From: a virus
Length of the DNA: 64,000 nucleotides
IMG/VR virus record: IMGVR_UViG_3300031539_000008
Span: 38,605-102,604 of that record
Strand: one strand, 5' to 3'
The first letter of the stretch is position 1. Every line of letters begins with the position of its first letter. The position numbers and the translations under genes were made by a program. The notes under the pieces were generated by a model. It did no database searches, was not told the DNA's origin, and was given only the letters and a program-made list of their open reading frames with translations. This document shows, piece by piece, positions 12,524 to 35,977 of this stretch.

Positions 12524-12933
12524 CAGGTTCCTCGCATCGCTTTACGCAGGATCGCGCGGGCGTCTGGATTATTCTTCGCATTTTTCTTGGCGGTCTTTTT
12601 GGCCTTACTGGGCTCTTGGGCGATACGCCCTTCCGCCAGCTCGATCATGCTATCCTTCTCACCGGCCCGCTCATCCAGACGATCCTGGTCGCGCGCGGCC
12701 GTGTACGCCTGGATGTAGAAGCTGTACTCGACCTTGTAGATGTGGCCGTTGACCTTCGTGTAGAGGCCGGGGATGACTCGGTCGTTCAGGCTGTCCCACA
12801 GCTCATGCCACTGGTAGTCGTCTGGGCCGTAGTCTGGCAGCGCCTGCTGTTGCTTGCGGGGGTCTGGGATTCTGGCGCTGCGTCGGTCGAACGACGACAT
12901 CTCCCGATACGGCGATGTGACAACCGGAGCCAT
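12523..12933 (-). CDS. Tagged late protein (136 aa)
   Basis: ATG 12933 overlaps the upstream stop as TGATG; its own stop overlaps the RadC-like gene's ATG the same way. Acidic, Tyr-rich middle (PDYGPDDYQWHELWDSL, YKVEYSFYIQAYTAARDQD) and a Lys-rich end KKNAKNNPDARAILRKAMRGT-like (tag at the last nine residues). No family recognised. Confidence 0.7.
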   Translation of the reverse strand: MAPVVTSPYREMSSFDRRSARIPDPRKQQQALPDYGPDDYQWHELWDSLNDRVIPGLYTKVNGHIYKVEYSFYIQAYTAARDQDRLDERAGEKDSMIELAEGRIAQEPSKAKKTAKKNAKNNPDARAILRKAMRGT

Positions 12934-13727
12934 CACGTCCCTCGCATCGCCTTGCGCAAGATCGTCTTGGCGTCGGGGTTCTTCTTGGCCACCTTCTTCT
13001 TCGCCTTCTTCTTCGCTTCTTTCCTCGCTGGCTTCCCCCAGTTGAGTTCATCCACCAGCGAGATGGCCTTGTCGAAAGCGTCGGCACCACGAAAAGTCTC
13101 GTAGATCTTCGTCTTGTCGCGCACCGCGTATACGCCATGCGGGAGCACGTCAATCCGTACCATCGGGGATGCAGCCTTGGCCCTGGGGTTCTTCACCCTC
13201 TTCTTGGCGCGCTTGCGCGAGGCTTTGCTCGCGGGGTTGCTGCGCAGTTTCAGCATGTCCTCCACCTCGGAGGATATGGAGCTGGCGCCGTCCATGATGG
13301 AGTAATCGTCGGCGTGGTGTCCCTCGTTCCAAGCGGCGTGCGCATCTTCCAGGGCTAGGATGGCCAGGACTTTGCGATGTGACCCGTCTGTGGTTTCACG
13401 GGCCTTTTCAAGCGTCTTTTCAGCTTGCTTGAGGTGAGCCTTCGCCAGCCTGGCATGGGTCTTCTTGGCGGGGTTCGATGTCTTTTTGCGCGGGTTCTCG
13501 TACCCCTCGCCCTCCACGCCCCCGGCCTCGCCCCACCCAGACTCGCCGCCCGGCCACTCGTCCGAGAGCTTGGCCCCGAGCCTGGATGCCTTGCGGTCGC
13601 CGCCCTTGGGCTCGAATCCTCCACCCCGTCGCCACTCCCAGTACGCCTCCAGGTGTTCGCCGGCGGCGTGGTAGTCCTTGCGCTTGAGGGCGCTGGTGGC
13701 CATGTCGAGTGCTGCCTGCGGGTCCAT
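12933..13727 (-). CDS. Tagged Lys-rich late protein (264 aa)
   Basis: ATG 13727 (MDPQAALDMATSALK) is fixed by TGATG overlap with the upstream stop. The N-terminal part is helical and TPR-like (ALKRKDYHAAGEHLEAYWEW), with a Gly/Glu-rich linker. There are two helical segments separated by Lys/Arg/NP-rich stretches, then a small domain (MVRIDVLPHGVYAVRD). The end is a Lys-rich tail and NPDAKTILRKAMRGT. Modular alternation of folded parts and basic linkers; function unknown. Confidence 0.7.
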   Translation of the reverse strand: MDPQAALDMATSALKRKDYHAAGEHLEAYWEWRRGGGFEPKGGDRKASRLGAKLSDEWPGGESGWGEAGGVEGEGYENPRKKTSNPAKKTHARLAKAHLKQAEKTLEKARETTDGSHRKVLAILALEDAHAAWNEGHHADDYSIMDGASSISSEVEDMLKLRSNPASKASRKRAKKRVKNPRAKAASPMVRIDVLPHGVYAVRDKTKIYETFRGADAFDKAISLVDELNWGKPARKEAKKKAKKKVAKKNPDAKTILRKAMRGT

Positions 13728-16657: not shown

Positions 16658-17614
16658 TCAAATGTTCATCATGCGACGCATGAACGAGCCACGCGTTGCC
16701 TTCTTCGGGGCGCTCGCAGCTCGTTCCTTCGCGGTCTTCTCTACGAGCGCACACGCGGATGCAAGCGCACGCCGGGCTCCCCACGCTGTGTAGCTCCCAA
16801 GAGCCGTCTCGTCTGGGCCGATCACCGTCGCCATCGCCATGCCGTCATGCTCTGCGATGTCTCCGCCTTCGTACGCGCCAAGCGGTTGCACGTCGATGGT
16901 GTAGCTGCGGCAGGCGAACAAGCCGCCGTTGCCCTTCACGGTACGCATGCGCACGCCAGCGGGAACTGGTGGCTGCGGTGGAACACGTTTGCGGCTGCGG
17001 TGTTTCGCCTGCTCGTGCATCAGGTCGATCACTGCCAGCGCCTCCAGGTGGGGGAACGGCTGGTCCGAGGACCATTCTGCCAACACGGCACCGGGTCCGT
17101 CTTTGATCTGGCGCGCAATCTGGACGTTTGGCCCCTGCACAAGTATATGACGGCCTCTGTACTTGTAGATGGTTCCGTTTTCGTCCTTCTGGACGGTGAG
17201 CGGAGTCTTGTTCTCGCGGAATCCTCCGTAGAGCAGGTCGTCTTCGGCGGCCTCCCCTGGATTCTTTTGGACCTTCTCCCAGAACCCCCACTCGATTGTT
17301 CCGTCGGGCATCTTTCGCCCGCTGAAGTAGTGATGTGCCGGAGCCGTCTTTTGCAGCCCGGAGGTGATGTGGTCGAAAAGGGTATCAGCCTGGCGCTGCC
17401 AATCGCGCGGAGCCTCCTCGTACCACTCATCCCCGTCTCCACGCGCATCGGCCTCGGTGATGTAGAGATAGACGCTGCCAAGCTGTCCGCGTAGGGCACG
17501 ATCTGCGTCCGGGTCAAGATGGCGCAGCGTCCCCATCAGCTCGACGATCGCCTCACCCCGAGGCCCGTCTGGCATCTGGATGAACACGGGTCCGGGCTTG
17601 GCTCGCTTACGCAT
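16658..17614 (-). CDS. Late protein with C-terminal MRRMMNI tag (318 aa)
   Basis: MRKRAKPGPVFIQMPDGPRG. Mixed alpha/beta body with a GTIYKYRGRHILVQGPNVQI segment and a Pro-rich linker (VPPQPPVPAGV) separating two halves. The C-terminal half (DIAEHDGMAMATVIGPDE, TAWGARRALASACALVE) ends KKATRGSFMRRMMNI, one of the tag variants. No family recognised. Confidence 0.65.
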   Translation of the reverse strand: MRKRAKPGPVFIQMPDGPRGEAIVELMGTLRHLDPDADRALRGQLGSVYLYITEADARGDGDEWYEEAPRDWQRQADTLFDHITSGLQKTAPAHHYFSGRKMPDGTIEWGFWEKVQKNPGEAAEDDLLYGGFRENKTPLTVQKDENGTIYKYRGRHILVQGPNVQIARQIKDGPGAVLAEWSSDQPFPHLEALAVIDLMHEQAKHRSRKRVPPQPPVPAGVRMRTVKGNGGLFACRSYTIDVQPLGAYEGGDIAEHDGMAMATVIGPDETALGSYTAWGARRALASACALVEKTAKERAASAPKKATRGSFMRRMMNI

Positions 17615-18318: not shown

Positions 18319-18942
18319 CTACCCCTTCGGCCACTGTGATGGTGGAAGGGATAACTTCTCCTCCGCATCGAGAGACGCCCAGTTGGTACGATCGAACTCC
18401 TTGGCCATCTTGCTCAGCCAGGCGATGGCCGAACTCAGCGTCTTGGAGTCTCTTCGGGCCAGATATTCTCCCTCCGCCAAGATGATCGCCTCGTAGTGCT
18501 TGCTTCCCCACCGGTAGACGATCAGCTTGAACGGCCCCGTTGAGGCAGCGTAGTCCTGCTCGTAGACGTTCTCTGGGCTACCGTGGCGATCGGCCAAGCT
18601 ACGGTAGTAGTCGTACGCGGCCCCCTGAACCCCCTTGGACCCAGTGCCCCACATCAGGCGGTGGATGGATTCCTCGGTCTCCGTGCCTTCTGGATCGAGA
18701 TGCTCGTTGCCTTGCACAAGGTCGTCAGCCCACTCGGTGTTGCCGACGTACAGGTAGTACCTACGATCCCAGGGGAACAGATGCTCTCCGGGCCCGGAAG
18801 TTTGCGTCGGCTCTCCGCGCTCGATCTGGTACTTCCAGTCTGGGAAGCCAGGCACCCTGAATGAGCTGCGGTCCTTCTTCTGGCGAAGACCAATCGCCAT
18901 CGCACCAACGATGGCCATGCCCCAGATCAGTGGAAGTGGCAT
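18319..18942 (-). CDS. N-terminally anchored late protein (207 aa)
   Basis: MPLPLIWGMAIVGAMAIGLRQKK: membrane helix 3-18 followed by Arg/Lys, then a soluble domain of about 180 residues (YQIERGEP, YYLYVGNTEWADDL, YRWGSKHYEAIILAEGEYLA, SAIAWLSKMAKEFD). The positive charges after the helix predict the soluble domain on the cytoplasmic side. Start overlaps the neighbour at 18942. Confidence 0.7.
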   Translation of the reverse strand: MPLPLIWGMAIVGAMAIGLRQKKDRSSFRVPGFPDWKYQIERGEPTQTSGPGEHLFPWDRRYYLYVGNTEWADDLVQGNEHLDPEGTETEESIHRLMWGTGSKGVQGAAYDYYRSLADRHGSPENVYEQDYAASTGPFKLIVYRWGSKHYEAIILAEGEYLARRDSKTLSSAIAWLSKMAKEFDRTNWASLDAEEKLSLPPSQWPKG

Positions 18943-21217: not shown

Positions 21218-22177
21218 CTACAACTCCCAGAGACCGGTTGCGCGCCACTGAAGGGTTGACCCTGTGATTCCGGATCCGACGCCTGGACGAACCTGGAGGC
21301 CGAGCAGATCTCCAACCCCGAAAATCGCGGAGATAGGTGAGAATGCGAACAACACGGGCACGCCCTCAACCATGGGGAAGGGTCCGCTCGTGGAGATCAC
21401 CAGTAGCGGAGGAACGGCCACCGGCAAGTGCGCGAACGCACCTGGCTGCACAGGGGCCACGTTTGGTGGGACGAGATCGAGCAGGTCAATGCTGACTCCG
21501 CTGAAGCTCCCGGCACCAGGGAGATTTTGCGCGAAGGACATGATGACGGCAACAAGGCGTCCAGCGCGATCGGGGATCCACTCCCAGATCGGCCCTGGCG
21601 GCGCAGTGGGCAGCGCTCCTGGGACCCCCAAGTTCCAGTCCGTGCCGAAGGTGAGGCGGAACGGGTCGGGGATTCCTTCTCCGGCCGCGTCGTTGGAGTT
21701 GGTGTGATGCGTGCGGTGCTCTTGGATAATCGGCCCGGTTGGCCCTGTTGGTCCGACACCGCCAGTGCTGCCAGCAGGCCCTGTTGGTCCGACACCGCCA
21801 GTGCTGCCAGCAGGCCCTGTTGGTCCGACACCGCCAGTGCTGCCAGCAGGCCCTGTTGGGCCGACACCGCCAGTGCTGCCAGCAGGCCCTGTTGGGCCGG
21901 TGACCCCTGTTCCGGTTGGTCCCGTTGGTCCCGCGACGCCGGTGCTGCCAGCAGGCCCTGTTGGGCCGGTTGGTCCGACGGGACCAGGACCTGTTGGTCC
22001 GGTCGGACCAACGCTGCCTGTTCCGCCGGTTCCGCCGGTCGGGCCTGTTGGTCCTGTTCCGCCGGTGACGCCCATGGGTCCGGTTGGTCCCTCTGGTCCG
22101 GTTGGTCCGGTTCCGCCGGTATCAACCCACTGCTTCCACGGAGGGCCACCACCAAATCCTTTGACTCTTTGTACCAT
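21218..22177 (-). CDS. Collagen-like fibre protein (319 aa)
   Basis: N-terminal segment [17 protein letters not shown] carries the G-F-G-x-G-x2-W-K motif shared with the two next small genes. Residues about 20-145 are Gly-x-y triplets rich in GPT/GPA, including four copies of a 12-residue unit. The C-terminal about 170 residues form a beta-rich globular head ([45 protein letters not shown]), the usual trimeric fibre tip. Collagen-like stalks are frequent in phage spikes and fibres, including PRD1 P5. Probably the receptor-binding spike. Confidence 0.8.
21738..21890. repeat. 36-bp tandem repeats encoding collagen-like units
   Basis: About four near-identical 36-bp units, each encoding the 12-residue unit [12 protein letters not shown] on the minus strand. 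Copy number is likely variable. Confidence 0.8.
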
Positions 22178-22606: not shown

Positions 22607-22622
22607 GGCAGCGCGGACCGGA

Positions 22623-22805: not shown

Positions 22806-22856
22806 TTGGGAGTTCTCCTCGCTTGAGTCTACGCGGCCAGGCGCCGCGGGTACAGG

Positions 22857-23054: not shown

Positions 23055-23091
23055 GGTCCTTGCTTCCTTTTCTCGGGTTGGTGATTGAAGT

Positions 23092-23874
23092 CTACGCGGC
23101 CTCGCTGTTGTCGTACAGCCAGTCGAGCAAATGGGTTGCGCCGGGGTAGTCGCCCTCTTCTGCGCGTTCCCACATGAAGTCCGGGTCGGTGCCCGTCTCG
23201 GCGAGGGCGCGGTCGAACCGCTCACGTGTCCCTGGGGATCGCTCATGCTCCTCGTTGTAGTCGTCGATGAGCGAGGACGCGGCCATGCCACGACGCACTG
23301 CCAGCCAGTTCTGATGCACAGGCGGCATCGCCTTGAACACGGGATTGCGGATCACTCGCTTCACGAAGTCGGCCAGCATCACCACCGACTCCAGCGGCTC
23401 AAACACGAGATGAGGAGACTGATCGGCGAACGGTCCGTGCACCCCTCCCGCCGAGAGACCGGTAGCCGGAAGGAAGCCGAACCATCCACCTGATCCGAAA
23501 CACCAGTAGCGCCAGTCGTATGGGTTGTCGCCGTAATAGCCGCGACCGACGGCGCCCTTCCACAAGTTGCATGCCGCCTTGGCCTCGTTGTCAGCGCCCT
23601 TGGTCCCGGTGCGCAGCTTCACGTTGGGCGGCATCGCGCCGTAGTCGATTCCAAGTCCGACTAGATTCTTTCCTCCAGATTCCGTGTATGCCACGGCGGG
23701 CGCGAAGGCTGAAAAGCCGGGAAGGGCACCTGTGGCCTCGACCCATTCGGCCCAGGCCTGCGCATCTTTGAGCCCCCCGCTCAAAGATGCAGTAGACACC
23801 TTACTCTTGCTGCCGCGGCGGCGCCCTCCCCCTGCAAAGAGCAGGGCGGCGCCGCCGAGAAGCAGGAGTGGCAT
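23092..23874 (-). CDS. Membrane-anchored lytic transglycosylase-like protein (260 aa)
   Basis: ATG 23874 (MPLLLLGGAALLFAGGGRRR) gives one N-terminal membrane helix and then RRRGSKSK. The catalytic-domain signature is PAVAYTESGGKN with E65 as the presumed catalytic acid (SLT-type A-x(n)-E-S-G-x-x), then SGGWFGFLPATGL in the position of the G-x-M-G-L-M-Q-x-x-P motif. The anchored layout parallels PRD1 P7, a virion transglycosylase used for entry. Proposed role: local peptidoglycan opening at entry or exit. A GTG at 23892 is an alternative start. Confidence 0.7.
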   Translation of the reverse strand: MPLLLLGGAALLFAGGGRRRGSKSKVSTASLSGGLKDAQAWAEWVEATGALPGFSAFAPAVAYTESGGKNLVGLGIDYGAMPPNVKLRTGTKGADNEAKAACNLWKGAVGRGYYGDNPYDWRYWCFGSGGWFGFLPATGLSAGGVHGPFADQSPHLVFEPLESVVMLADFVKRVIRNPVFKAMPPVHQNWLAVRRGMAASSLIDDYNEEHERSPGTRERFDRALAETGTDPDFMWERAEEGDYPGATHLLDWLYDNSEAA

Positions 23875-23878
23875 GGCG

Positions 23879-24262
23879 CTAGCCACTGTCACCCTCGGAG
23901 GCGGGCGTTGTCTTGCGCTTGCGCTTCTTTCCCCGGAAGCTGGCGCGTTGCAGGCCGCCTAGCAGTCCCTGGACTGCGCGGCCGGCGAAGGCCGCCACGA
24001 GATCGTCGGGGTCCTCGTACTCATCGTCTCCGTCTCCGTCTCCGTCGTCATCCTCATCGGCCTCAGCGCGGCGAGATGTCTTCGTCTTCGTCTTCGTCTT
24101 CGGTCCCGGCTCGACTTCCATGGTCGGTATGTTCGGGTCGCTGGCGAGGCCCTTGACTGTCTCCCACAGCTCCTCCGCGGAGGAGCATATGTGGACATCC
24201 CCACCTGGGTCAGTCACGACCATGGTTTCGCCGTTTTTGGATTGGCGGATGTCGATCAGCAT
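23879..24262 (-). CDS. Acidic/basic low-complexity protein (127 aa)
   Basis: N-terminal small domain (MLIDIRQSKNGETMVVTDPG, CSSAEELWETVKGLA), then a KTKTKTKT run, an Asp/Gly dipeptide run (DDDGDGDGDDEYED), a hydrophobic-amphipathic helix (LVAAFAGRAVQGLLGGL) and a basic tail KKRKRKTT. Function unknown. Confidence 0.6.
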   Translation of the reverse strand: MLIDIRQSKNGETMVVTDPGGDVHICSSAEELWETVKGLASDPNIPTMEVEPGPKTKTKTKTSRRAEADEDDDGDGDGDDEYEDPDDLVAAFAGRAVQGLLGGLQRASFRGKKRKRKTTPASEGDSG

Positions 24263-24315
24263 CGGACACCCCCGATTCGATTGGCGTTGTCGAGTAGCAT
24301 GGCCGGGATTCTACC

Positions 24316-24981
24316 CTACCCGCCCGGCTGCTGCTGAAACTTCACCCAGGGGAATGGGCCGTCTGGCGAATAGAGGCCGTAGTAGGCCATCGAGGCGGCG
24401 ATGCTCGCGTCGCTGACGGTGGCAGACTCGAAAATTACCTCGCCGCTGTCCTCGTCGATCACGCGCGAGAAGTATCCGCCGAGGTCGTCGTCTGGCAGGA
24501 CGCACCAGCGGCGTCCGGGCTCCATGACCTCAAGCGGATCCAGCGTGTCGTCGATGGACTCCCACTGCTCAGTGGCCTCGTTGTAGGCCAGCCAGTCGAA
24601 GGGGCCCGGCTCCGCGTCATCGCACGCGCCCGCGGGCGGCTGGAACTGCGTCTGCGGATCCATGCTGTCCGCCATCTCCTCCAGAGCCGTCAGGACCTCC
24701 TCCATCGAGTTGGCCATCGGCCCGGATGTCCAGTTGCCGTCGAGAAGCAGCTCCCCCACGTACTTGGCGGTGCCGCTCGGTGTCGACCAGACTCGGTACT
24801 GGTAGGCCGTTCCGCCCTCGGACTCGATCTCACCCTCATCGACGATTTGGTCCTGATCCGCGGATCCGTTTCCTGATCCGGTCTGATCCGTGGATCCGTT
24901 TTGCGCACCGTAGCCGCGCTTCTTGCGTCCGAGGGCCATCAACACGATTGCGCCGATAGCGAGTGGGATGACAGCGTTCAT
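24316..24981 (-). CDS. N-terminally anchored late protein (221 aa)
   Basis: MNAVIPLAIGAIVLMALGRKKRGYG: helix 3-18 then RKKR. Gly/Asn/Gln-rich linker (about 25-45), then a beta-rich domain (YQYRVWSTPSGTAKYVGELL, NEATEQWESI, WCVLPDDDLGGYFSRV). Stop overlaps nothing downstream; ATG overlaps the upstream stop (ATGA at 24978-24981). First of a series of similarly anchored proteins. Confidence 0.7.
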   Translation of the reverse strand: MNAVIPLAIGAIVLMALGRKKRGYGAQNGSTDQTGSGNGSADQDQIVDEGEIESEGGTAYQYRVWSTPSGTAKYVGELLLDGNWTSGPMANSMEEVLTALEEMADSMDPQTQFQPPAGACDDAEPGPFDWLAYNEATEQWESIDDTLDPLEVMEPGRRWCVLPDDDLGGYFSRVIDEDSGEVIFESATVSDASIAASMAYYGLYSPDGPFPWVKFQQQPGG

Positions 24982-25508
24982 CGGATCATCCTCGCGAGCA
25001 GCCCCTCTGGGAGAGACCTGGGAAGTGTGGTTGACGCATATTGTACGCCCATGTCGTACCCATGCTGCATGGCCATCTGCATGGCCGTTTCTGAAAACGT
25101 CTGCTCGGAGAATATCATGGCGGCTGCCGGCCATGGGTCGCCCAGAGAACACCTGGGATCCGTCGCCAGCCTGGTTACTTCTTCGGCGTAAGCGCGTGCG
25201 AAGTCGATGTTGTCAGCCATGACCCCTGGGGCCGGGCCAAGTGCCTTGCGCAACACAACCAGCGTGGAATCTGGCGACGCCGCTTCCTCCGGGGTCATGG
25301 GGAACCCAAGATTGGTCATCCCCTTCGCCGCCAACTGGGCCACCCTGGCAAGCAAGCGGATGGCCTCCTGCTGTGTCTGCGGTGTGTACTGGATGGGGTT
25401 GCACTCAGCGTCAATGAAGTAGATGGACCCACCGCCTCCGCCCTTGGCCTTACCCTTGGCCACGGCTAGAAGCGCCGCGCCGCCAGCGATCAGGAGCCAG
25501 GGACTCAT
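24978..25508 (-). CDS. N-terminally anchored late protein (176 aa)
   Basis: ATG 25508: MSPWLLIAGGAALLAVAKGKAKGGGGG, membrane helix then Lys/Gly linker. Soluble helical domain begins IYFIDAECNPIQYTPQTQQE and includes ATDPRCSLGDPWPAAAMIF; ends LARMIR. No family recognised. Confidence 0.7.
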   Translation of the reverse strand: MSPWLLIAGGAALLAVAKGKAKGGGGGSIYFIDAECNPIQYTPQTQQEAIRLLARVAQLAAKGMTNLGFPMTPEEAASPDSTLVVLRKALGPAPGVMADNIDFARAYAEEVTRLATDPRCSLGDPWPAAAMIFSEQTFSETAMQMAMQHGYDMGVQYASTTLPRSLPEGLLARMIR

Positions 25509-26029
25509 CCGAACGCCCCAGTCTCCGCGTCGTAGCGGATGTCCTTGATCCCACGCGCAGACAGCCCCGCGTTGACCATCTCCGCGATGCGGAGCAGCGC
25601 GTCGCGGTAGGGCAGGTACTCCTCCGGACAGGTGACCTCCAGGATGCAGGTCGGCGGCAACATGATCGGCGCCCCCGCGTTGTACGGGTAGGCGCCCCAG
25701 TAGCTCACCCGCGTCATCCATCCGCTGAGCCACTCCCCGCCCACCGGGGTCACGAAGCCGTCCTGGGTCATGCCCGGTACGCCCGCGTCGATCCCGTCCT
25801 GGCCGAGGAATGGCCCGACAGTGGGCAGATTCTCCAGGGCGATGTCGACGTATCCGGCCTCCCGGTCAGCCTGCTCGGCGGTGTCGGCATCCGGGGCTGG
25901 ACCTGGGCCGCCCTTCGGGAGCGTGCCGGTCACGTCGGTGACTCCACCCTTGCCGCCGTTTTTTGCGCGTCGACCGAGCATGACCATGGCACCGGCAACA
26001 GCGGCGAGATAGAAGATTGATTTGTTCAT
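25505..26029 (-). CDS. N-terminally anchored late protein (174 aa)
   Basis: MNKSIFYLAAVAGAMVMLGRRAKNGGKGG: helix 5-18, then basic/Gly linker. Soluble part contains EYLPYRDALLRIAEMVNAGL and a Cys (CILEVTCPEE). Both ends overlap neighbours by four bases. Function unknown. Confidence 0.7.
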   Translation of the reverse strand: MNKSIFYLAAVAGAMVMLGRRAKNGGKGGVTDVTGTLPKGGPGPAPDADTAEQADREAGYVDIALENLPTVGPFLGQDGIDAGVPGMTQDGFVTPVGGEWLSGWMTRVSYWGAYPYNAGAPIMLPPTCILEVTCPEEYLPYRDALLRIAEMVNAGLSARGIKDIRYDAETGAFG

Positions 26030-26973
26030 GGGAGATTGTCCTCTGGGGAAAATGGAGCGCCGCCTACAACGTCCTCTTGGATTCGGTCGCTAATCCACCG
26101 ATAGAACTCTTTGACGTTTCCGCTCGACCACTTCTTGTCGTCCAGCACGCACTCAGGACTCAGCTCATGGATGATGGACCGCGCAATTTGCATAGCCTTC
26201 TCCGTTGGGCCCCATCCTCCGTCTGGTCCGTAGTTGTAGAGGTAGTCGGCATACCCCATCGCGCTGTTTCCGGGGATGGCCAGCGCCTGTGCCAGTGTCG
26301 GAGCCTCCATGGCCATGTTGGACCAGAATCTGCGCCCGACGAGGGCGCCACACGCAGGGGTGAGCCACGCGCTGTTACCCTCCCAGTCGAATGAGCGAGC
26401 CTGGATGATCAGACTGATGGCGTTCTGAACGACGTAGGCGTATGCCTCGGTGCTATTTTTGAGGTCCGCGGGAAGTTTACCCAAGTCCAGGTCGATCTCA
26501 TTTTTGCTTCCCATCGTTCGGTCCCAGTAGAACGGGACATTCCTGATGTCCACCGCGTACTCTCCGACCTGCCCCGTGACCCCTCCGTCCATGTATGACA
26601 CTCCCGACGGCGGCAACTGCTGAAGCACGAACTCGATGTCGGGATTGGAGATGGCGGCCGGATTGATGACTTGGCCAAGGAGCCCCCAGTCCTCTGAGGC
26701 ATCCTCCCATCCTCCCACCAGCGGGATGCTGGTGAAGATGTAGATGGCGGCGGTGGCAGTGTCCATGGTGGCGATGGGCGCGTCGTACGACCCACTCATT
26801 TCCCCTACGGACTCCCTCTGGATCGACACATTGTCGGGCAGCCAATAACCGTCGAATTCCCTGGATCCTTTGTGGCCGAGCTTCTTTGCCGTGCGCGCCG
26901 CACTCTTGCCTGCCGACTTCGTCACGACGACAGCGGCAGCGCCGACCAGCATCAGTGCGACCAGCGGGTTCAT
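26026..26973 (-). CDS. N-terminally anchored late protein (315 aa)
   Basis: MNPLVALMLVGAAAVVVTKSAGKSAARTAKK: one helix, then a basic segment. Large soluble domain with GYWLPDNVSIQRESVGEM, IYIFTSIPLVGGWEDASED, PFYWDRTMGSKNEIDL and LSPECVLDDKKWSSGNVKEF. No recognised fold. Confidence 0.7.
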   Translation of the reverse strand: MNPLVALMLVGAAAVVVTKSAGKSAARTAKKLGHKGSREFDGYWLPDNVSIQRESVGEMSGSYDAPIATMDTATAAIYIFTSIPLVGGWEDASEDWGLLGQVINPAAISNPDIEFVLQQLPPSGVSYMDGGVTGQVGEYAVDIRNVPFYWDRTMGSKNEIDLDLGKLPADLKNSTEAYAYVVQNAISLIIQARSFDWEGNSAWLTPACGALVGRRFWSNMAMEAPTLAQALAIPGNSAMGYADYLYNYGPDGGWGPTEKAMQIARSIIHELSPECVLDDKKWSSGNVKEFYRWISDRIQEDVVGGAPFSPEDNLP

Positions 26974-26974
26974 T

Positions 26975-27844
26975 TCAGCTAAACTCCTTGATCATGTCGC
27001 GCAGACGAATCCACGCCTGAATGTAGTCCTGGTGCCCGGGGTCATTTGGATCCAAAACCTCTGGCCCATCGGCGTACGCATGATGGAATGCCCAGTCGGT
27101 GCGGTCCTCCAGGTTGAGATTCTGATCCAGGGCCTTGTAGGCCCACTCCCGCTCATGCCACATCTGGGCCTCCAGCGGAAAGCGCTCCCTCCACGCCGCA
27201 TCCATGACCTGCATGGCAGGCTGGTACAGGTGGCGATAGAACAGCCGGTAGAGCGCGGGCTCCTGGGCCGAGAAGTCGGCGAACGCCTGGAGATAGGCGT
27301 CCCAGGACGGATAGTCCTGGACGACGGGGAGCTTGGCCGCGCACATCTCGTACACGCCCCCGTCGAAGTCGAACAGGTACTGCATCGCCCATCGTTTGGT
27401 GGGTGACTCAAACGGGGTCTCGCCCGCATCGAAGAGGATTTCGTCCCAGTGGTCGGGCGGCGATGACGCCAGCTCGGCGTCATCCTCAGCCACGGTGTCC
27501 ACGACGGAGTTGTAGAACTCCACGATGTCGTCCGTGATCAAAGGACGGAACTGCTTGCCCACGGCGTACGCCTTGCAGTCCTCAGATACCCACATGGTCG
27601 CAGGCCACTCCTCGGTGGTTACATCCTGCGGAAACTCGTAGCCGTCTGGCATCACGTAGTCCTCCAGCACGGCAAGAACCTGCTGGTTCTCTGGTGTGGG
27701 TGCAGGCTCTCCGTCTCCTCCGTCTCCTCCGCCGTTGGGCTCAGGGAGCGGTTCGGGCGGCGGAATTGGCTTGTGCTTCTTCTTGCCACCGGCCAGCGCC
27801 AGGAGCAGGAGTGCTCCACCTCCGATTATGATTCCTGGATTCAT
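26975..27844 (-). CDS. N-terminally anchored late protein, WVSxDCxA paralogue 1 (289 aa)
   Basis: MNPGIIIGGGALLLLALAGGKKKHKP, then a Pro/Gly/Asp linker. Residues about 75-100 carry ATMWVSEDCKAYAVGKQFRP, matching a motif in the next gene (LWVSDDCQAFVMGQNWLP). The remainder is helical with many aromatic residues. The paralogy suggests a shared virion-membrane scaffold. Confidence 0.7.
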   Translation of the reverse strand: MNPGIIIGGGALLLLALAGGKKKHKPIPPPEPLPEPNGGGDGGDGEPAPTPENQQVLAVLEDYVMPDGYEFPQDVTTEEWPATMWVSEDCKAYAVGKQFRPLITDDIVEFYNSVVDTVAEDDAELASSPPDHWDEILFDAGETPFESPTKRWAMQYLFDFDGGVYEMCAAKLPVVQDYPSWDAYLQAFADFSAQEPALYRLFYRHLYQPAMQVMDAAWRERFPLEAQMWHEREWAYKALDQNLNLEDRTDWAFHHAYADGPEVLDPNDPGHQDYIQAWIRLRDMIKEFS

Positions 27845-28605
27845 TAGAACTCGATCCCTCCCTCGTACTCGTCGATGGCGGATTGGATGTCTGCAACGGA
27901 CGCCGAGGTGATGAAGCTGAGGAGGAAGTCGAGCGCGGGGTACTCCTTGCGCCAGGCTCGGAAGCTAGCCTGCCACTGCGCTGCATTGGCACCTCCGGCC
28001 CCTGGAAGCGTCTCCGCGCATGCTGCTGCCGAAGGCGACGAATCTGCCAGCGCCTGGATGGCGAACCGCACGCTCATCGGAAGGTCGCTTGGGTAGATTC
28101 CAACCTCGGCATAGCTGTTGTAATCGCCCCATGAAGATGGCAGAGATTTGCTCACGTATGCCCCCGGAACCCTGGCCCCAACCTGACCTGCGAAATCGAG
28201 GACGATCGCGTTTGGCATCGTGTGGATGGGATCGCTCCCATCTCCGATTTCGGCCAGCATGGTCTGGTTGATGACGTTCCACTTGAGCAGGTTTTCTTCC
28301 TGCGCCATCCACTGGTAGGGGCTGAGCGCTCCGACTGTCGGAAGCCAGTTTTGGCCCATCACGAACGCTTGGCAGTCATCGGAGACCCACAGATCGTTGG
28401 AGGTCATGCCGTCTGGAATCTGCTTCCCGTATCCGCCACCCTTGGGCAGCCAGCCAGACTTGCTTCCACCTGGGATCGGGTCCGTCTTGTTCGGATCGTC
28501 TGGATCGATCAGCGGCTTGAGGGGACCGCCGCCGTTCTTCTTCTTCCCTCCGAGGAGGGCGAGGAGCAAAAGACCTCCGCCGACGATGACTACTGGTTCT
28601 GGCAT
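27844..28605 (-). CDS. N-terminally anchored late protein, WVSxDCxA paralogue 2 (253 aa)
   Basis: MPEPVVIVGGGLLLLALLGGKKKNGGGP, linker, then PDGMTSNDLWVSDDCQAFVM at about 65-84. The C-terminal half is helical (SVRFAIQALADSSPSAAACA, FRAWRKEYPALDFLLSFI). Stop and start overlap neighbours. Confidence 0.7.
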   Translation of the reverse strand: MPEPVVIVGGGLLLLALLGGKKKNGGGPLKPLIDPDDPNKTDPIPGGSKSGWLPKGGGYGKQIPDGMTSNDLWVSDDCQAFVMGQNWLPTVGALSPYQWMAQEENLLKWNVINQTMLAEIGDGSDPIHTMPNAIVLDFAGQVGARVPGAYVSKSLPSSWGDYNSYAEVGIYPSDLPMSVRFAIQALADSSPSAAACAETLPGAGGANAAQWQASFRAWRKEYPALDFLLSFITSASVADIQSAIDEYEGGIEF

Positions 28606-28625
28606 GACGTTCTCCTTGCGACACT

Positions 28626-29216
28626 CTAGCCGCTTATTTCTGGGAATTGAAGTTGACCACTCTGGTTGAAGTAGGCGATGGCCTGCTCGACGTAGCTCTG
28701 CACGTAGTCGGCAAGTTGGGTCATAGCCTCGGGGACGGATCCGCCCGGATCAGCATCCGGCCCGAGTTCCTCGCTCAGCGGCAGCTTGCACAGCGTGCCG
28801 ACAGACGAGATTTCGTTGGTGGCATAGGCGACGGGAGAGTTTGCCACGAGAAGGTGAGCGACGACTACCGCGGAGAGATTCTCCTCTGCTCCGTACAGTG
28901 CGGTCTGATCCTCAGCGTTGGGTTGCGGCTGTGCGCCGATGGCTTCGACGATCTCGACAAGTGCCGGAAGCGCGTACCCACCAAACCATGCACTCTCGTT
29001 CGGCAGGATAGTCCAGACCTCGCACATGCCGCCCACGGAGATCTGCGGGGGCCCATCCTCGGAGGGTGTGCAAGACCGCTCGTTTTCGTCCCAGTGGAAT
29101 CCGACCGGGCATTCAGACGGCTGCGGGGGAAGCGGGGGCGTTTTCTGCCCCTTCTTCTTGCCCTTGGCTAGAAGCATCGCACCGCCGTAAAGAAGGAGTA
29201 GCGTGACCGGTTCCAT
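28626..29216 (-). CDS. N-terminally anchored late protein (196 aa)
   Basis: MEPVTLLLLYGGAMLLAKGKKKGQKTPP: helix then Lys-rich linker and a Pro-rich stretch. A short Cys-bracketed segment (CPVGFHWDENERSCTP, like a small disulfide knot) precedes a helical domain. Function unknown. Confidence 0.7.
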   Translation of the reverse strand: MEPVTLLLLYGGAMLLAKGKKKGQKTPPLPPQPSECPVGFHWDENERSCTPSEDGPPQISVGGMCEVWTILPNESAWFGGYALPALVEIVEAIGAQPQPNAEDQTALYGAEENLSAVVVAHLLVANSPVAYATNEISSVGTLCKLPLSEELGPDADPGGSVPEAMTQLADYVQSYVEQAIAYFNQSGQLQFPEISG

Positions 29217-29219
29217 GAC

Positions 29220-30083
29220 TCACTTCTTTCGGGATAGGATGAATACGCCAACGCCGAGGGCCAAAAGGACTACGCCTGGAGTCTTCCGCAGTGCACCTGT
29301 GATTCCTTTCAGAATTGCGAATATGTCAGCCAGGATCCCCGCGATGTCTTCGGCCGCCCTTTCGATTTTTGCGAAGACCTGATCTTGTTCTTCCAGTGCT
29401 CCGTCGAACAGGCCATCGTCGATAGCGGCGATGATCCAGAACTCGCGTCGCATCTCCAGCTCGTGCTCCAGGGCAACGATGACTTGGTTGATCAGCGAAA
29501 GCGCAAAGAGGTAGTCGGGGCCAGTGCAGCTCGGCGCATGGATGTCCGACCAGAAATCCTGGCAGGCGTTGTAGTCCCAGAAGAACAGCGGGCCTTCCAG
29601 GTTGTTCTCCACGTGCTCCCATGCCTGCTCGGTCATCTCGCGCGGATCAGGCATCTGGACGATGCCTCCGGCGAGAACGGGGAACATGGGTCGGTACACG
29701 TTCTCGTAGCGCAGGGTGATGTTCTCCAGGTCCGCATCGAGCTGCTTGAGGCCTTGCTCCCCAAGGCTAACCTGGGCCCGGTATCCGCGTACGCGAGCCA
29801 GGGTCGATCCCAGGCCGTTGACCGTATGCGCCAGTAGCTTGAGGCGGCTCTCCCTCGCCTGCATGAGCAGGCCGTCCACGGTCACCATCAGCTCAGTCGC
29901 CTCGGCGATCTTTGACAGATCTACCTCGCTCAGGTTTGGCGCGGTTTTGGCCTGCGAGATCATCGAGCGAGCGAGGCGGGCCTGGTCCTCAGACTTCTCC
30001 TCAACTGCGACGAGGTTTCGATACAGCTTCTTCGTCCGCGCAAACAGACCGCCAGCGTCGATGGTGTAGGCGCTACTCGCCAT
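29220..30083 (-). CDS. Helical protein with C-terminal membrane anchor (287 aa)
   Basis: MASSAYTIDAGGLFARTKKL. Mostly alpha-helical/coiled (KSEDQARLARSMISQAKTA, LLMQARESRLKLLAHTVNGL). One membrane helix at the extreme C-terminus (TPGVVLLALGVGVFILSRKK), a tail anchor of orientation opposite to the neighbouring N-anchored proteins. Overlaps the upstream gene by 11 bases. Confidence 0.65.
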   Translation of the reverse strand: MASSAYTIDAGGLFARTKKLYRNLVAVEEKSEDQARLARSMISQAKTAPNLSEVDLSKIAEATELMVTVDGLLMQARESRLKLLAHTVNGLGSTLARVRGYRAQVSLGEQGLKQLDADLENITLRYENVYRPMFPVLAGGIVQMPDPREMTEQAWEHVENNLEGPLFFWDYNACQDFWSDIHAPSCTGPDYLFALSLINQVIVALEHELEMRREFWIIAAIDDGLFDGALEEQDQVFAKIERAAEDIAGILADIFAILKGITGALRKTPGVVLLALGVGVFILSRKK

Positions 30084-31128
30084 GACCCCTCGCCATCATC
30101 CCGGGAGGCGGGGTGATACCGTTGCTTCCGTCGGACCAGGAGACGCCAAGGGTAGTGACGACGCCAGCTCCCAGGCTTGCTTCGTTCAGCTTGGGGAGCC
30201 ACACGGTGGGCCGATCATCTCCCCACGGCGTGGGCTCGGCGCCAGGGAGTTCGTGGTCGTCGTCCCAGGTGGTCGGAAGGTCATTCGCCGGCGAGCAAAC
30301 GATCAGGGAGACGTACTGCGCCACATCCTGCTCAGAGGGCTGGCCAATAGCCGTTAGCGCCGCACGGGCGATTCCATGGATGGTCTCGTCGCCCTCAACC
30401 GTGTGGAAGACGCCGTGTGCGACCTTGTTGTCGGTCGGATGATAGGCGTAGGGATCCGGCCGCCGTCGCATCACCCGCTTGCGCCGGAGTGTCAGCGACC
30501 GCCGAGGTGCCTCTGCCTGCGGAGGCATGGGCGTTGCTCGACCAATACGCGGCGATGGCTCCTCACGCTCGGGCTCACTCTCCTCTTCCTCGTCAGCATG
30601 CCCGTCCGCATCGCCGTCGCCGTCGCCGTCGCCGTCCTCCTCGATTTCCTCGATTTCCCGCTCGCGAGCATGGGACGTGGCATCATCTGCGATGCGTTCT
30701 TCCTGGGCGGCCAGTAGGGTGTTCACGCGCAAGCGGATGCGCTTGTAGATCATGGTGGCGCCAACGTCCCGGTCGCCATCGCGCAACTCTGGCGGCCATG
30801 GGAACTCCATGCCGGTCACCGGATGGATGGGATAGATAGTTTTTGCCACGGCCAGCGTCAGCCGATCAGGATCGGGCTCGCCCTTGTCCAGCAGTTCCTG
30901 GGCGACCTCGCTCACACGATGCGGCTGCCAGGGGAAGGTGGTCCAGCTCTGCTTGATCCGTCCGTTTCCACCCTTGACGCGACTGTGAGTCCTACGCGCA
31001 GGTCGTCTCAGCGTTCGCCGTGAAGACGCATCCGCAGTCTTGCCGGCGACACCCCTACGCTTGCCTCTGCTGTGTCCCTTTTTTCCGGCGAGAAGAAGCG
31101 CGCTTCCGATGACGAGAAAATGGATCAC
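30073..31128 (-). CDS. N-terminally anchored LysM-like protein (351 aa)
   Basis: The GTG at 31128 has an ideal AGGAGG ribosome-binding site and overlaps the upstream TGA. MIHFLVIGSALLLAGKKGHS anchor, then RGKRRGVAGKTAD. A Gly/Asp run (DGDGDGDGDADGHADEEEE, about 170-188) separates a helical part from a region FHTVEGDETIHGIARAAL that resembles a LysM motif (V-x-x-G-D-T-x2-x-I-A), followed by VWLPKLNEA. LysM domains bind peptidoglycan, consistent with cell-wall contact of an envelope protein. Confidence 0.65.
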   Translation of the reverse strand: MIHFLVIGSALLLAGKKGHSRGKRRGVAGKTADASSRRTLRRPARRTHSRVKGGNGRIKQSWTTFPWQPHRVSEVAQELLDKGEPDPDRLTLAVAKTIYPIHPVTGMEFPWPPELRDGDRDVGATMIYKRIRLRVNTLLAAQEERIADDATSHAREREIEEIEEDGDGDGDGDADGHADEEEESEPEREEPSPRIGRATPMPPQAEAPRRSLTLRRKRVMRRRPDPYAYHPTDNKVAHGVFHTVEGDETIHGIARAALTAIGQPSEQDVAQYVSLIVCSPANDLPTTWDDDHELPGAEPTPWGDDRPTVWLPKLNEASLGAGVVTTLGVSWSDGSNGITPPPGMMARGHGE

Positions 31129-31841
31129 GTAAAGCCTCCTGGTTGCGCCCACGGTGGTGGGGTGCCCGACAACTTCGCGAGCAGTGAACTTGGCGGATTG
31201 CGTCCCGATGGCGGGCAGACGATCTGGGCCGGGACTGCACCCATGCCGGGAGCACGTGCTGACGGCGCTTGCTGGATCGCCGGCAGCCACAGCAGTCCGA
31301 AGTTGGTGCGTTGAGATGGCGGGGTGAAAGTGGTGTCCTTCACGGGCCATCGCGCAGCGTGCAGGGACTTGAGCGCGTCTGGATTCTGCTTCTCGAAAGC
31401 CAGAGACGCACTGATGCCGCCGACTACGGTGTTACCGCTGTCGGGTACGCCGTAGTAGTAGCGATTCCAGTCGCTGCTGTTGATGCACCTTGCGTACGCG
31501 GTCACTTGCTGCGCCGTCATAGTGGGGACGCCGAAGATGGCCATGGCGGCCACCGCATCGACCAGCGCGCGATCAACCTCCAGGTCAGCAGCGGACACCG
31601 GATAGAACGTGCCGAAGACCGGCTGGCCAGGATTCGACAGGGGCACTTGAAGCTGAGTCCCTCCGTTTCCGTTTCCGTTTCCGTTTCCGTTTCCGTTTCC
31701 GTTTCCGTTTCCGTTTCCGCCGCCAGACGATCCACCGCCACCGCCACCGCCACCGCTACCTCCCGTCGTGGATGATCCTCCGCGTCGTCCGAGTGCGGCA
31801 GCGGCAAGGAGTCCGAGTCCGAGAATGACGATCGGTTTCAT
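31125..31841 (-). CDS. N-terminally anchored protein with Gly-Asn repeat linker (238 aa)
   Basis: ATG 31841: MKPIVILGLGLLAAAALGRRGG, Gly/Ser linker, then a GN dipeptide run (about 48-63) encoded by a hexanucleotide repeat. The C-terminal domain has NSSDWNRYYYGVPDSGNTVV and, near the end, SARAPGMGAVPAQ, a site like the motif found in other late proteins. Function unknown. Confidence 0.65.
   Translation of the reverse strand: MKPIVILGLGLLAAAALGRRGGSSTTGGSGGGGGGGGSSGGGNGNGNGNGNGNGNGNGNGGTQLQVPLSNPGQPVFGTFYPVSAADLEVDRALVDAVAAMAIFGVPTMTAQQVTAYARCINSSDWNRYYYGVPDSGNTVVGGISASLAFEKQNPDALKSLHAARWPVKDTTFTPPSQRTNFGLLWLPAIQQAPSARAPGMGAVPAQIVCPPSGRNPPSSLLAKLSGTPPPWAQPGGFT
31661..31719. repeat. GTTTCC-type hexanucleotide repeat
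   Basis: About nine tandem copies of a 6-bp unit (plus-strand TTTCCG) encoding Gly-Asn repeats on the minus strand. Such tracts slip easily and may vary in length. Confidence 0.8.
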
Positions 31842-32296
31842 CTGGCACCTCTTGGGCAACGGCATACGCCGCGTTTCACGTCTTCGCTCGGGTCGTATCG
31901 CATGTTGTCGCTGACGACGTAGGCGTGGTACGCCTGGTCAATCGGGCGCCCGTAGTGATCGTACTGCTGCTCCAGCACGACGTAGGCTGGACGGTTGAGG
32001 TGGTAGCGAATCCAGGCGGCAAGGTACGCCGACATATCCGCGCACGTCCCAACTTTCTCCTCCAGCAGCTTGTCCGCCGCCAATATGACCTGGCAGAAGT
32101 CCTCGCTGCGACACATCATCGGGTCAACGTACTCAACCCCTGCGTGGAGCAGGCAGCAGGGCGTGTTGGGGTCGAGGCCGAAGAAGATCTGATTGTGCTG
32201 GACTAATCCCTCTAACATCGCCTCCAGCATCTGTACCGTGGACTGGCCGTTGAGCGACCGGAAGCGAAAGCGGAGTTGCATATCATCGCCGACCAC
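31838..32296 (-). CDS. Transglutaminase-like (papain-fold) putative peptidase (152 aa)
   Basis: GTG 32296 chosen (ATG 32281 is the alternative). A plausible catalytic triad is C85 in KVGTCADMSAYLAAWIRYHL, H124 in QAYHAYVVSD and D135 in NMRYDPSED. This is the C-H-D order and spacing of the transglutaminase-like superfamily, whose bacterial members are often cysteine peptidases or amidases. The protein is soluble and Cys-rich near its C-terminus (VCRCPRGAR). It lies immediately downstream of the capsid candidates, where tailless viruses often encode maturation proteases. Target unknown. Confidence 0.6.
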   Translation of the reverse strand: MVGDDMQLRFRFRSLNGQSTVQMLEAMLEGLVQHNQIFFGLDPNTPCCLLHAGVEYVDPMMCRSEDFCQVILAADKLLEEKVGTCADMSAYLAAWIRYHLNRPAYVVLEQQYDHYGRPIDQAYHAYVVSDNMRYDPSEDVKRGVCRCPRGAR

Positions 32297-32297
32297 A

Positions 32298-33188
32298 TCA
32301 AAACTCCAAGTGCCAGACGTACGTGTAGAATCGACCAACGCCGGTCGTATTGACGCTGGCAACGCCGGCGGCATTTCCAGGGCGGTCTGACAGACAGCTC
32401 ACGTTTGCACAATCCAAGGAGAAGGGGACGGGGGAGATCAGGCCTGTCGGTGGGGCGCTCCCGGTCGGGTCGCCGAACTCCACCCAGTTGGCTGCGTTCG
32501 GGATACCCGGCGCTGGTCCAGGTGTCGAGATGCGAACGCCCACGGCTCCTGGTGGGCACGGCACGAATACGGGCGTCGCATCGGGGAGGGAGAACGTCTG
32601 CGTGAGCAGGGCCTCTCCTCGGACCGGGGCGAAGCTCTCCTGCACGGATGCCCTGATGATGGTATCGAGAAATAGCCCGGGTCCGTCCATGGACTGCGGA
32701 AGAGTCCCTTGGGGTGTCGAGCCTCGGACGCTGATGCACTCCGGCGGAGTGATGATGTTCAGCTCAAGCGAACAGGAGTGCGCAGAGATGCGCATGCCCG
32801 CGCCAATGTCGAAAACCGCGCGTCGGCCGATCCCTGCTTGATGCCAGGATACGGCCGCCCAGAGCTTGGAGCATGGCAGTCCCGAGCCCTGGATGACCGC
32901 AGGCGGGAGAGGTGAGGCAGAGTTTCCAACGAGCACCTGCCGCATGACCTCCAGGGCATTGATCTCTGCGGTCCACCAACGAGGCTCGGCGCAGCTTCCA
33001 CTGGGCCCACTGACGTACGCATCCATGCTCACCCGCGGGTTGATGGGCGACTCCATGGGCGTTTGGTTCGTATCGACCGGATTCGTGCCCCACCGGCACA
33101 GAAACTGCCGAGTCATCGACTGAGTCGGCGGAGTGCACTGGCCAGCGTAGGCACCGGGTGCAGATGGCTGGCGTGAGTTGAATGGCAT
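32298..33188 (-). CDS. Beta-rich candidate capsid protein 1 (296 aa)
   Basis: MPFNSRQPSAPGAYAGQCTP. Consists mostly of predicted beta strands and loops (RRAVFDIGAGMRISAHSCSL, FLDTIIRASVQESFAPVRGE, AVGVRISTPGPAPGIPNAAN, GVGRFYTYVWHLEF), with no membrane helix. Neighbour of a second beta-rich protein of similar size. A pair of single-jelly-roll coat proteins is the hallmark of P23-77/sphaerolipovirus-type capsids. The sequence resemblance is only at the level of strand pattern. Confidence 0.55.
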   Translation of the reverse strand: MPFNSRQPSAPGAYAGQCTPPTQSMTRQFLCRWGTNPVDTNQTPMESPINPRVSMDAYVSGPSGSCAEPRWWTAEINALEVMRQVLVGNSASPLPPAVIQGSGLPCSKLWAAVSWHQAGIGRRAVFDIGAGMRISAHSCSLELNIITPPECISVRGSTPQGTLPQSMDGPGLFLDTIIRASVQESFAPVRGEALLTQTFSLPDATPVFVPCPPGAVGVRISTPGPAPGIPNAANWVEFGDPTGSAPPTGLISPVPFSLDCANVSCLSDRPGNAAGVASVNTTGVGRFYTYVWHLEF

Positions 33189-33250
33189 CGGTTCGACCGG
33201 AAAAATGAGAGCCGACGCCCCCGGCTACCCGGGGACGGCGGCGACCTGGA

Positions 33251-33949
33251 CTACGCCAGGACGTTGCACCACAGCACGACGAAGAAGTGGATGTTGCTGG
33301 TGACGACGATGTTGTCGAAGAAGATCTGAAGCTCCTGACCGTTCTGCGAACGGAAGGGGGCCCAGTCGACACACACCGGCTCACGAGTCGCTGCGAACGC
33401 AGCGCTGTTGAGCCCGTTGCCGATCCCGCGAGCACGGAGCTGCGAGTTTCCGCCGATGGTCACGTTCGTGACCACGGTGGGAAGCTCGATCACCGGGTTG
33501 GCGATCAGGTTGTTCGCATCCGGGGCGGGAGCCGCCTCGAAAGCCGTGAACCAGATGGCCACCGCCTGCAACGCCACGGCGTCGAAGTTGGTGATCAACA
33601 GGCTTGAGCCACCCGCCGTGCCAGGCACGACCGGAGCCGTTCCGAGCGTGGTCGCGCCGATCAGGTCGCAATCACACAGGAACTCCTCCGGACACGGACC
33701 GCCGACGGGAGCCCCGAGCGGCAGATCGTTCTGACCGGGGAACCGACAGGACGGATCCTGTGAGTTGTTCGCGCCCATGCCCTGAAGGCGACCGCTGCGA
33801 GGAATGGGGAACGCCCGTCCCCGCCCGGGTTGGCTGCTGCCGGCACCGCGACGAGCGCCGATCATCAGATCGGAGAAGGTCTCGGCTTCCTTGTTGAGCT
33901 TCTTGCTCTGCTTGAGAGCGTTCATGTAGCCATCCAAATGTGCGGACAT
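33251..33949 (-). CDS. Beta-rich candidate capsid protein 2 with LQGMGA site (232 aa)
   Basis: ATG 33949 with an AAGGA ribosome-binding site. Helical/basic N-terminal about 60 residues (YMNALKQSKKLNKEAETF) end at RLQGMGANNSQDPS, then a beta-rich body (GSSLLITNFDAVALQAVAIW, VVTNVTIGGNSQLRARG) and a strand-rich end (ELQIFFDNIVVTSNIHFFVV). The N-terminal region looks like a removable scaffold or delta domain, and the motif would be its cleavage point. Likely the major or minor capsid protein. Confidence 0.55.
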   Translation of the reverse strand: MSAHLDGYMNALKQSKKLNKEAETFSDLMIGARRGAGSSQPGRGRAFPIPRSGRLQGMGANNSQDPSCRFPGQNDLPLGAPVGGPCPEEFLCDCDLIGATTLGTAPVVPGTAGGSSLLITNFDAVALQAVAIWFTAFEAAPAPDANNLIANPVIELPTVVTNVTIGGNSQLRARGIGNGLNSAAFAATREPVCVDWAPFRSQNGQELQIFFDNIVVTSNIHFFVVLWCNVLA

Positions 33950-33972
33950 AGCTGAATCATCCTTGCGTTTGC

Positions 33973-33992
33973 GCTTTGCAATCCTGCAAAGC
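33973..33992. promoter_or_regulatory. Perfect inverted repeat upstream of candidate capsid gene
   Basis: GCTTTGCA-atcc-TGCAAAGC, 8-4-8, located 24-43 bases before the ATG of the gene at 33251-33949. The half-site TGCAAAGC recurs at 34643-34650 in the divergent control region. Could be an operator or a stem in the mRNA leader. Confidence 0.55.
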
Positions 33993-34036
33993 CTTGGGTT
34001 TGCGCCTCTTGCTTCCACGACCGGGTGCCAGTGGGT

Positions 34037-34054
34037 GCTGATTTAGCCATCAGC
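34037..34054. promoter_or_regulatory. Leader hairpin (6-6-6)
   Basis: GCTGAT-ttagcc-ATCAGC hairpin in the 190-base non-coding leader (33950-34139) before the capsid candidate; further short palindromes occur at 34051-34058 and 34070-34079. No U-tract, so not a typical terminator. Confidence 0.35.
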
Positions 34055-34139
34055 GCTGACAGAGCCGGCTCTCGTCGAGAGGCTCGACCGAAACCTAGCG
34101 ATCACCGCAGGTTGAAACCTCGATCCGGGTCGATCCGGA

Positions 34140-34520
34140 TTAGGTCGCTTCCAGCGCCATCTGCTTGCCGTAGTTGCCAGCCCAGAGCGAGAGCGCTCCC
34201 ATGCCAGCAGCGCGGGCCGCACCGCTCATCTTCTTACCGGCCATGCCGGTAAGCCCGACGCCAGCGAGTGCAACGCCGACCAAAAGGTCGATGTCGACGC
34301 CGAACATCTTGAGGTCTTCCTCGGTTCCACCATCACGCTCGATGGTGCCCATGTAGTAGCCCACGCCGAAGGCGGTTCCGCCCGCCAGCGCGATCTCCAT
34401 GGTGTTTTCCGCGGCCTCTTTGGCCTTGTCCTTGTAGCGCCGGGCACGTGCAGCCATCCGCTGGAATCCGTCGACCAGCGTATCCTTGTCCAAGCGCTTG
34501 AGTTCGGTGGCGTCTGCCAT
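34140..34520 (-). CDS. Small multi-pass membrane protein (126 aa)
   Basis: ATG 34520 with GAGG upstream. Basic helical N-terminus (MADATELKRLDKDTLVDGFQ, ARARRYKDKAKEAAEN), then two hydrophobic Gly/Ala-rich segments (about 46-66 and 76-98) and a third weaker one. First gene of the late block in transcription order. Suits a virion-membrane or pore-forming protein; a holin-like role is possible. Confidence 0.65.
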   Translation of the reverse strand: MADATELKRLDKDTLVDGFQRMAARARRYKDKAKEAAENTMEIALAGGTAFGVGYYMGTIERDGGTEEDLKMFGVDIDLLVGVALAGVGLTGMAGKKMSGAARAAGMGALSLWAGNYGKQMALEAT

Positions 34521-35961: not shown

Positions 35962-35977
35962 GGCCAAAACGTAAAAT

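Follow-up and report, generated by a model that had tools for sequence, protein, structure and literature searches.

Which kind of virus carries a long run of genes for membrane-anchored proteins and no recognisable head or tail gene? The question is raised by a 64,000-nucleotide stretch of DNA (the window) that forms the right 64 kb (positions 38605-102604) of the 102,604-base IMG/VR virus record IMGVR_UViG_3300031539_000008. A codon-usage script called approximately 170 genes over the whole contig, and the remaining 38.6 kb outside the window was read as well. The contig carries fibre, lysis, integrase, sigma factor and recombination genes together with a 33-kb late-type block. In this block lie an operon for N-terminally anchored proteins and several genes whose otherwise unrelated products end in a common C-terminal peptide. 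These features fit, without proving it, a virus of unusual size whose shell encloses a membrane, and we give even chances to a large virus that contains a membrane, probably lacks a tail and uses two terminal address tags.

Anchored proteins and coat candidates

An earlier note, made from the letters of the window, had described a run of proteins consisting of one N-terminal helix, Lys/Arg/Gly residues and a soluble domain. To score this construction we required 14 residues with a mean hydropathy of at least 1.5 within about the first 21 residues and a net charge of at least +2 across the next 14. The run was confirmed: 12 contig genes have this construction, all in the minus-strand block, with ten between 23092 and 31841 and two lying apart (7032-7463 and 18319-18942). 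Operon neighbours are mostly 1-53 bases apart or overlap by at most 11 bases, which indicates a single minus-strand operon. With identical gene caller and criterion, nine anchored genes were found within 12 consecutive genes, compared to a maximum of two in the 14 controls (Mx8, the tailed phage ct2os315, six 50-kb pieces of huge uncultured phages, PRD1, PM2, SH1, P23-77, FLiP and SSIP-1). Without the charge rule, the anchor count is ten of 12 here and six in each of SSIP-1, P23-77 and the tailed Mx8, and as Mx8 also reaches six, this form of the criterion is less specific. The tail-anchored protein that had been noticed was likewise borne out by its hydrophobicity (29220-30083), and genome scans revealed no homologue of it. 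N-anchored protein 2 matched phrog_10432 (0.0024) via its acidic repeat only. The anchor of the protein at 23092-23886 is real, but its proposed identity as a transglycosylase, suggested by the ESGG motif, is weak and unproven: Pfam, PHROG, PDB and SLT comparisons were all without a match. The chagasin-like inhibitor domain at 7032-7463 is membrane-anchored and lies within the phage late region. Upstream of the window, a 570-aa protein without a detected homologue (contig piece L001, 3746-5458) has a C-terminal anchor of similar style (GAVLAIAAIAGLILLGRRR).

The same construction occurs in VP22 (MDGKTLLLVLLGGGVAAYLAYSLAKR), VP23 (MRTAVLLAMLGGAVLGVYLARRG) and the ORF31 transglycosylase of P23-77, in P16 of PRD1 and in P6 of PM2. 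The suggested likeness to virion membrane proteins of these viruses holds for the anchors; no homology was detected. P23-77 VP15, VP19, VP20, VP22 and VP23 are membrane-associated proteins of that virus (PMC12429598).

Beside the operon lie two adjacent genes that may encode coat proteins of 296 and 232 aa. Their adjacency, which the earlier note had pointed out, is plain, whereas their beta-rich character is weak, coming from AlphaFold2 models of single sequences with low predicted local distance difference test scores (pLDDT). The 296-aa candidate gave a beta-rich model with strands in the C-terminal half (pLDDT 33.8) and the 232-aa candidate, modelled as residues 61-232, a low-confidence all-beta one (pLDDT 39.4). 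The proposed fold check thus yielded beta-rich models for both, but the 232-aa model found no match in PDB and BFVD at E ≤ 0.001, and jelly rolls are unproven. The rare-codon fraction of the 232-aa gene ranks seventh-lowest of the genes tested. A motif in this protein, G[MLVI]GA, was considered as a maturation cleavage site, with five R-associated hits in called genes versus 1.05 expected; it is a lead only, as the shuffle maximum also equals five and similar motifs occur in Mx8. The gene at 34140-34520 had been described as a multi-pass small membrane protein, which is plausible, with one helix clear but two weak. A transglutaminase fold for the neighbouring protein at 31838-32296 is unproven, as PF01841 did not match.

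The order and sizes of the genes around the coat candidates appear to parallel those of P23-77 (Matshushitaviridae), a virus with two single-jelly-roll coat proteins and an internal membrane. Here, a membrane protein of 126 aa, which would occupy the VP15 position, is followed by 232 aa (172 after GMGA), 296 aa, the anchored proteins, a lytic-like enzyme and a fibre; in P23-77, VP15 (138), VP16 (173) and VP17 (291) are followed by membrane proteins and lysozyme and transglycosylase. Both share Gly-rich N-terminal anchors followed by Lys/Arg on membrane proteins and a transglycosylase, the one here being putative. P23-77 differs in its size (17 kb versus more than 102 kb) and in having a packaging ATPase, and there is no sequence similarity. 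Salisaeta icosahedral phage 1 (SSIP-1), a 44-kb membrane phage with T=49 (PMC6260650), is comparable as a membrane phage of large size that encodes integrase, sigma factor and endolysin and, in a cluster, proteins anchored by one terminal helix; about nine of its proteins (21296-40363) carry at their ends a single Gly-rich helix of similar kind, with Lys. Its anchors, however, are mostly C-terminal, its ATPase (gp40) is present, and it has no detectable homologues on this contig. PRD1 (Tectiviridae) and PM2 (Corticoviridae) share the N-terminal anchors of P16 and P6, a virion lytic enzyme and spike proteins, but have genomes of 10-15 kb, double jelly rolls and a packaging ATPase, again without sequence similarity. 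Several single-helix membrane proteins clustered with coat genes are a trait of internal-membrane phages that the contig shares, its coat genes being putative.

A common C-terminal motif

Nine contig proteins end in the motif [AILFS]-L-R-[RK]-[LMIA]-M-[RK], of the LRRLMRI or ILRKAMRGT type (g12 NALRRIMRL, g14 SAFHRLMRI, g16 DVFRRMMKL, g17 AALRRMMKL, g76 ILRKAMRGT, g84 ILEKAMRGT, g85 ILRKAMRGT, g86 ILRKAMRGT and g90 SFMRRMMNI). Related C-termini were found in g75, g81 and g83 and possibly in g11, g15 and g91; this related set includes a HicA-like and a histone-H1-like protein. Shuffling the last 30 residues gave a mean count of 0.0035 and a maximum of one in 2000 shuffles, a very large margin for an expression that was composed after the C-termini had been seen. 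The motif did not occur internally in 29,423 residues of protein and was absent from all 14 controls. Since codons and the spacing to the next gene vary, the constraint on the tag acts at the protein level, and a DNA element was rejected. The tagged genes form two blocks, one in the late-type part of the window (3.8-17.6 kb) and one at 10.1-15.5 kb of the contig; none lies among the replication genes. Their products are otherwise unrelated (one has a RadC/JAB domain, one is kinase-like by eye) and mostly basic.

The simplest reading, by analogy, is that the tag is a putative address for packaging virion cargo. In the internal head proteins of T4, which carry a capsid-targeting sequence, and in the cargo-loading peptides of encapsulins, a short terminal peptide steers unrelated proteins into a shell. 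The likeness lies in the short terminal peptide on unrelated proteins; here, in contrast, the peptide is C-terminal and of other sequence, and packaging is only putative. Independent of the type of virus, the sharing of one C-terminal peptide by unrelated proteins of a phage offers a simple packaging-signal hypothesis and possibly a tool for cargo loading.

A tblastn search against phages and plasmids gave no structural relative. Its sole significant match linked residues 329-437 of the tagged 513-aa protein to an early-region gene of ct2os315 adjoining an antirestriction gene (36%, 9e-7), which is not structural. A HicA-like hit from PADLOC (1.9e-8, member scan) was attributed by eye to the protein at 10753-11454. 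Two tagged proteins of contig piece L001 resemble, by eye and without database support, a protein kinase (11257-12753; HYGNIG and DPG motifs) and an ADP-ribosyltransferase (14978-15535).

Tailless or tailed

In the reading that we prefer, the minus-strand block from roughly 1.3 to 34.5 kb would be the virion module of a large, probably tailless bacterial virus with an internal membrane. The Gly-rich-anchored proteins would be inserted in the inner membrane of the host and expose their soluble domains to the cytoplasm, a topology predicted from the Lys/Arg residues that follow the helix. The 296-aa and 232-aa proteins would build the shell on the cytoplasmic face, and the anchored domains would then bridge membrane and shell, as P16 links the two in PRD1. 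The C-tagged proteins (RadC/JAB, kinase-like and others) may enter the particle with the DNA and be delivered to the next host, while the collagen-like and other fibres may dock on one vertex protein through a GxGGGxxWK N-terminal motif. Somewhat below even chances, and thus tentatively, we propose a lineage of bacterial viruses that lack a tail, contain a membrane and have genomes of more than 100 kb, more than twice the size of SSIP-1, in which the N-terminal anchor and the C-terminal LRRxM[RK] tags sort virion proteins and the latter load effector-type cargo. If true, a bacterial member of this size would show that a tailless virus with a membrane can accommodate a large genome together with a cargo of proteins for delivery, which would bear on the origin of large membrane-containing viruses.

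Several results weigh against this proposal. A packaging ATPase of the FtsK/HerA type, a trait of the Helvetiavirae (P23-77/SH1 type), was sought on the 102.6 kb with PF01935, PF01580 and phmmer, using the five ATPases of PRD1, PM2, SH1, P23-77 and SSIP-1, and none was found; the earlier note, too, had recognised no FtsK/HerA ATPase and had called for this full-contig search. In the positive control for phmmer, four of the five known ATPases find one another, and a Walker A-like motif is present in only two contig proteins, the AAA protein and the DnaB helicase. No contig protein shows sequence homology to the compared tailless viruses. Among the coat proteins typical of Varidnaviria, neither the adjacent single jelly rolls of Helvetiavirae (P23-77 VP16 and VP17) nor the double jelly rolls of Bamfordvirae (PRD1 P3 and PM2 P2) have a homologue here. 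Jelly rolls in the coat candidates are neither shown nor refuted, the models being too poor. Without the charge rule, the anchor count is ten of 12 here and six in each of SSIP-1, P23-77 and the tailed Mx8, and as Mx8 also reaches six, this form of the criterion is less specific. The retrospective wording of the tag expression counts here as well. In addition, the contig, at more than 102 kb, is far above the known tailless membrane phages, which have roughly 7-18 kb in prokaryotic double-jelly-roll viruses (PMC5894146) and 44 kb in SSIP-1. Finally, the replication genes (AAA ATPase, RecT and DnaB) are of types known in tailed phages, and the contig has no terminal direct repeat of at least 16 bases and a last open reading frame truncated by its right end, so it is a fragment or an unjoined circle and a tail module could lie outside it. 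With the search for a packaging ATPase negative and the jelly rolls of the coat candidates unproven, the contig cannot be assigned to any tailless virus family.

The main rival to a tailless membrane virus is an incomplete tailed phage of roughly 130 kb at least, with terminase, head and tail genes off the contig, anchored proteins that serve the host membrane or are virion accessories, and C-tagged proteins that, like Alt/IP of T4, reside inside the head and are injected. The contig ends and the replication genes just described agree with it, as do the matches of collagen-like and other fibre genes to tail-fibre PHROGs and the well-known packaging of effectors by tailed phages. Yet in about 100 kb with the gene content given above, head and tail genes, a tape measure and a portal are all missing. 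The absence of terminase, portal, tail and HK97 capsid genes that had been noted for 64 kb holds for the whole incomplete contig: none of these hallmarks of Caudoviricetes, among them the genes then named as refuting a tailless virus, was detected by Pfam and PHROGs, fibre-type matches aside. Such an anchor cluster is also found in none of the tailed controls, and we regard the tailed phage as rather unlikely.

That the C-terminal tag is unrelated to packaging and serves, for example, as a degradation signal or to dock on a hub protein of host or phage, we consider unlikely. Short, basic, amphipathic C-terminal peptides can act in these ways, but the confinement of the tagged genes to two blocks, one of them late-type, and away from the replication genes speaks against this. 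It is improbable that the anchored proteins are absent from the virion and instead reshape the membrane of the host or form a phage compartment within the cell (a vesicle or replication organelle), with the C-tag as import or retention signal. Such targeting would agree with an operon in which unrelated soluble domains share an anchor, and with the short tag common to proteins of nucleic-acid type. Against it, fibre genes and coat candidates adjoin the operon without a break, anchors of comparable kind sit on virion membrane proteins in characterised viruses, and no chimallin-like or vesicle protein was recognised.

Fibres and further features

The collagen-like fibre that the earlier note had seen was borne out by PF01391 (Table 1). 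Its RVxGFGGGxxWK N-terminal motif is common to fibre-type proteins, and GxGGGxxWK-type motifs, perhaps docking peptides, were found in fibre-like and small proteins at window positions 21218-23054, in L001 at 832-1767 and in contig piece L002 at 534-1055. Two small proteins at 22623-23054 of the window carry the motif twice or more. A glycosyltransferase and a methyltransferase (19505-21210) adjoin the collagen-like fibre gene and might modify the fibre.

Table 1 Features of the window discussed in the text, from right to left.
Feature	Position	Strand	Basis
Small Gly-rich membrane protein, 126 aa, first gene of the module	34140..34520	-	Hydrophobicity; no Pfam/PHROG match
Candidate small coat protein, 232 aa (172 aa after GMGA at residues 57-60)	33251..33949	-	No homologue; beta-rich low-confidence model
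Candidate large coat protein, 296 aa	32298..33188	-	No homologue; low-confidence model
Protein with transglutaminase-like Cys-His-Asp pattern (GTCADMSAYLAA...YHAYVV...YDPS), by eye	31838..32296	-	Sequence
N-anchored protein 1, Gly/Asn repeat linker	31125..31841	-	Hydrophobicity, anchor criterion
N-anchored protein 2, 351 aa	30073..31128	-	Anchor criterion
Tail-anchored protein, 287 aa, C-terminal helix with SRKK end	29220..30083	-	Hydrophobicity
N-anchored protein 3	28626..29216	-	Anchor criterion
N-anchored protein 4, weak similarity to N-anchored protein 5	27844..28605	-	Anchor criterion
N-anchored protein 5	26975..27844	-	Anchor criterion
N-anchored protein 6, 315 aa	26026..26973	-	Anchor criterion
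N-anchored protein 7	25505..26029	-	Anchor criterion
N-anchored protein 8	24978..25508	-	Anchor criterion
N-anchored protein 9	24316..24981	-	Anchor criterion
N-anchored protein 10, lytic-transglycosylase-like by eye (ESGG motif)	23092..23886	-	Anchor criterion
Collagen-like fibre, N-terminal RVxGFGGGxxWK motif	21218..22177	-	PF01391 8.4e-9; PHROG tail-fibre matches
N-anchored protein 11	18319..18942	-	Anchor criterion
C-tagged protein, end SFMRRMMNI	16658..17614	-	Tag motif
C-tagged protein, end NPDAKTILRKAMRGT	12933..13727	-	Tag motif
C-tagged protein, end NPDARAILRKAMRGT	12523..12900	-	Tag motif
C-tagged RadC/JAB-domain protein, end ILEKAMRGT	11795..12523	-	phrog_10276 3.1e-29; tag motif
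Protein with HicA-like N-terminus, related C-terminus TLRRLMRI	10753..11454	-	phrog_2089 2.9e-15
Lys-rich histone-H1-like protein, C-terminus ILRKFSKI	8872..10236	-	35% Lys+Arg
N-anchored protein 12, chagasin-like cysteine-protease-inhibitor domain	7032..7463	-	PF09394 4.2e-8; anchor criterion
C-tagged protein, 513 aa, end NPVARDILRKAMRGT	3801..5342	-	Tag motif
811-aa protein, helix-turn-helix domains, basic C-terminus RRLSRMMRA	1340..3775	-	Domain matches, C-terminus

The PHROG scan of the 70 window proteins gave the 25 families that were most frequent, and later scans individually covered most others. When IMG/VR was scanned with peptides of both coat candidates, of the AAA ATPase, of the exonuclease and of the small membrane protein, a distant exonuclease was the only match, and genome scans gave one distant glycosyltransferase match. 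At the DNA level, patterns written for the fibre motif and for the C-terminal tag returned nothing or chance hits without related genes, and hhalign gave no signal for the one protein pair tested. For the myxobacterial host suggested by the earlier note, evidence was found neither for nor against. The contig also has matches to the superoxide dismutase and thioredoxin families, which by eye correspond to L001 7046-7648 and L002 10810-11121. Two neighbouring small Cys-rich proteins at 5660-6254 of the window have near-identical basic N-terminal halves (MNNPSMASSRSKRGSAASTRAAYQKPARRRGR), whereas their C-terminal halves differ.

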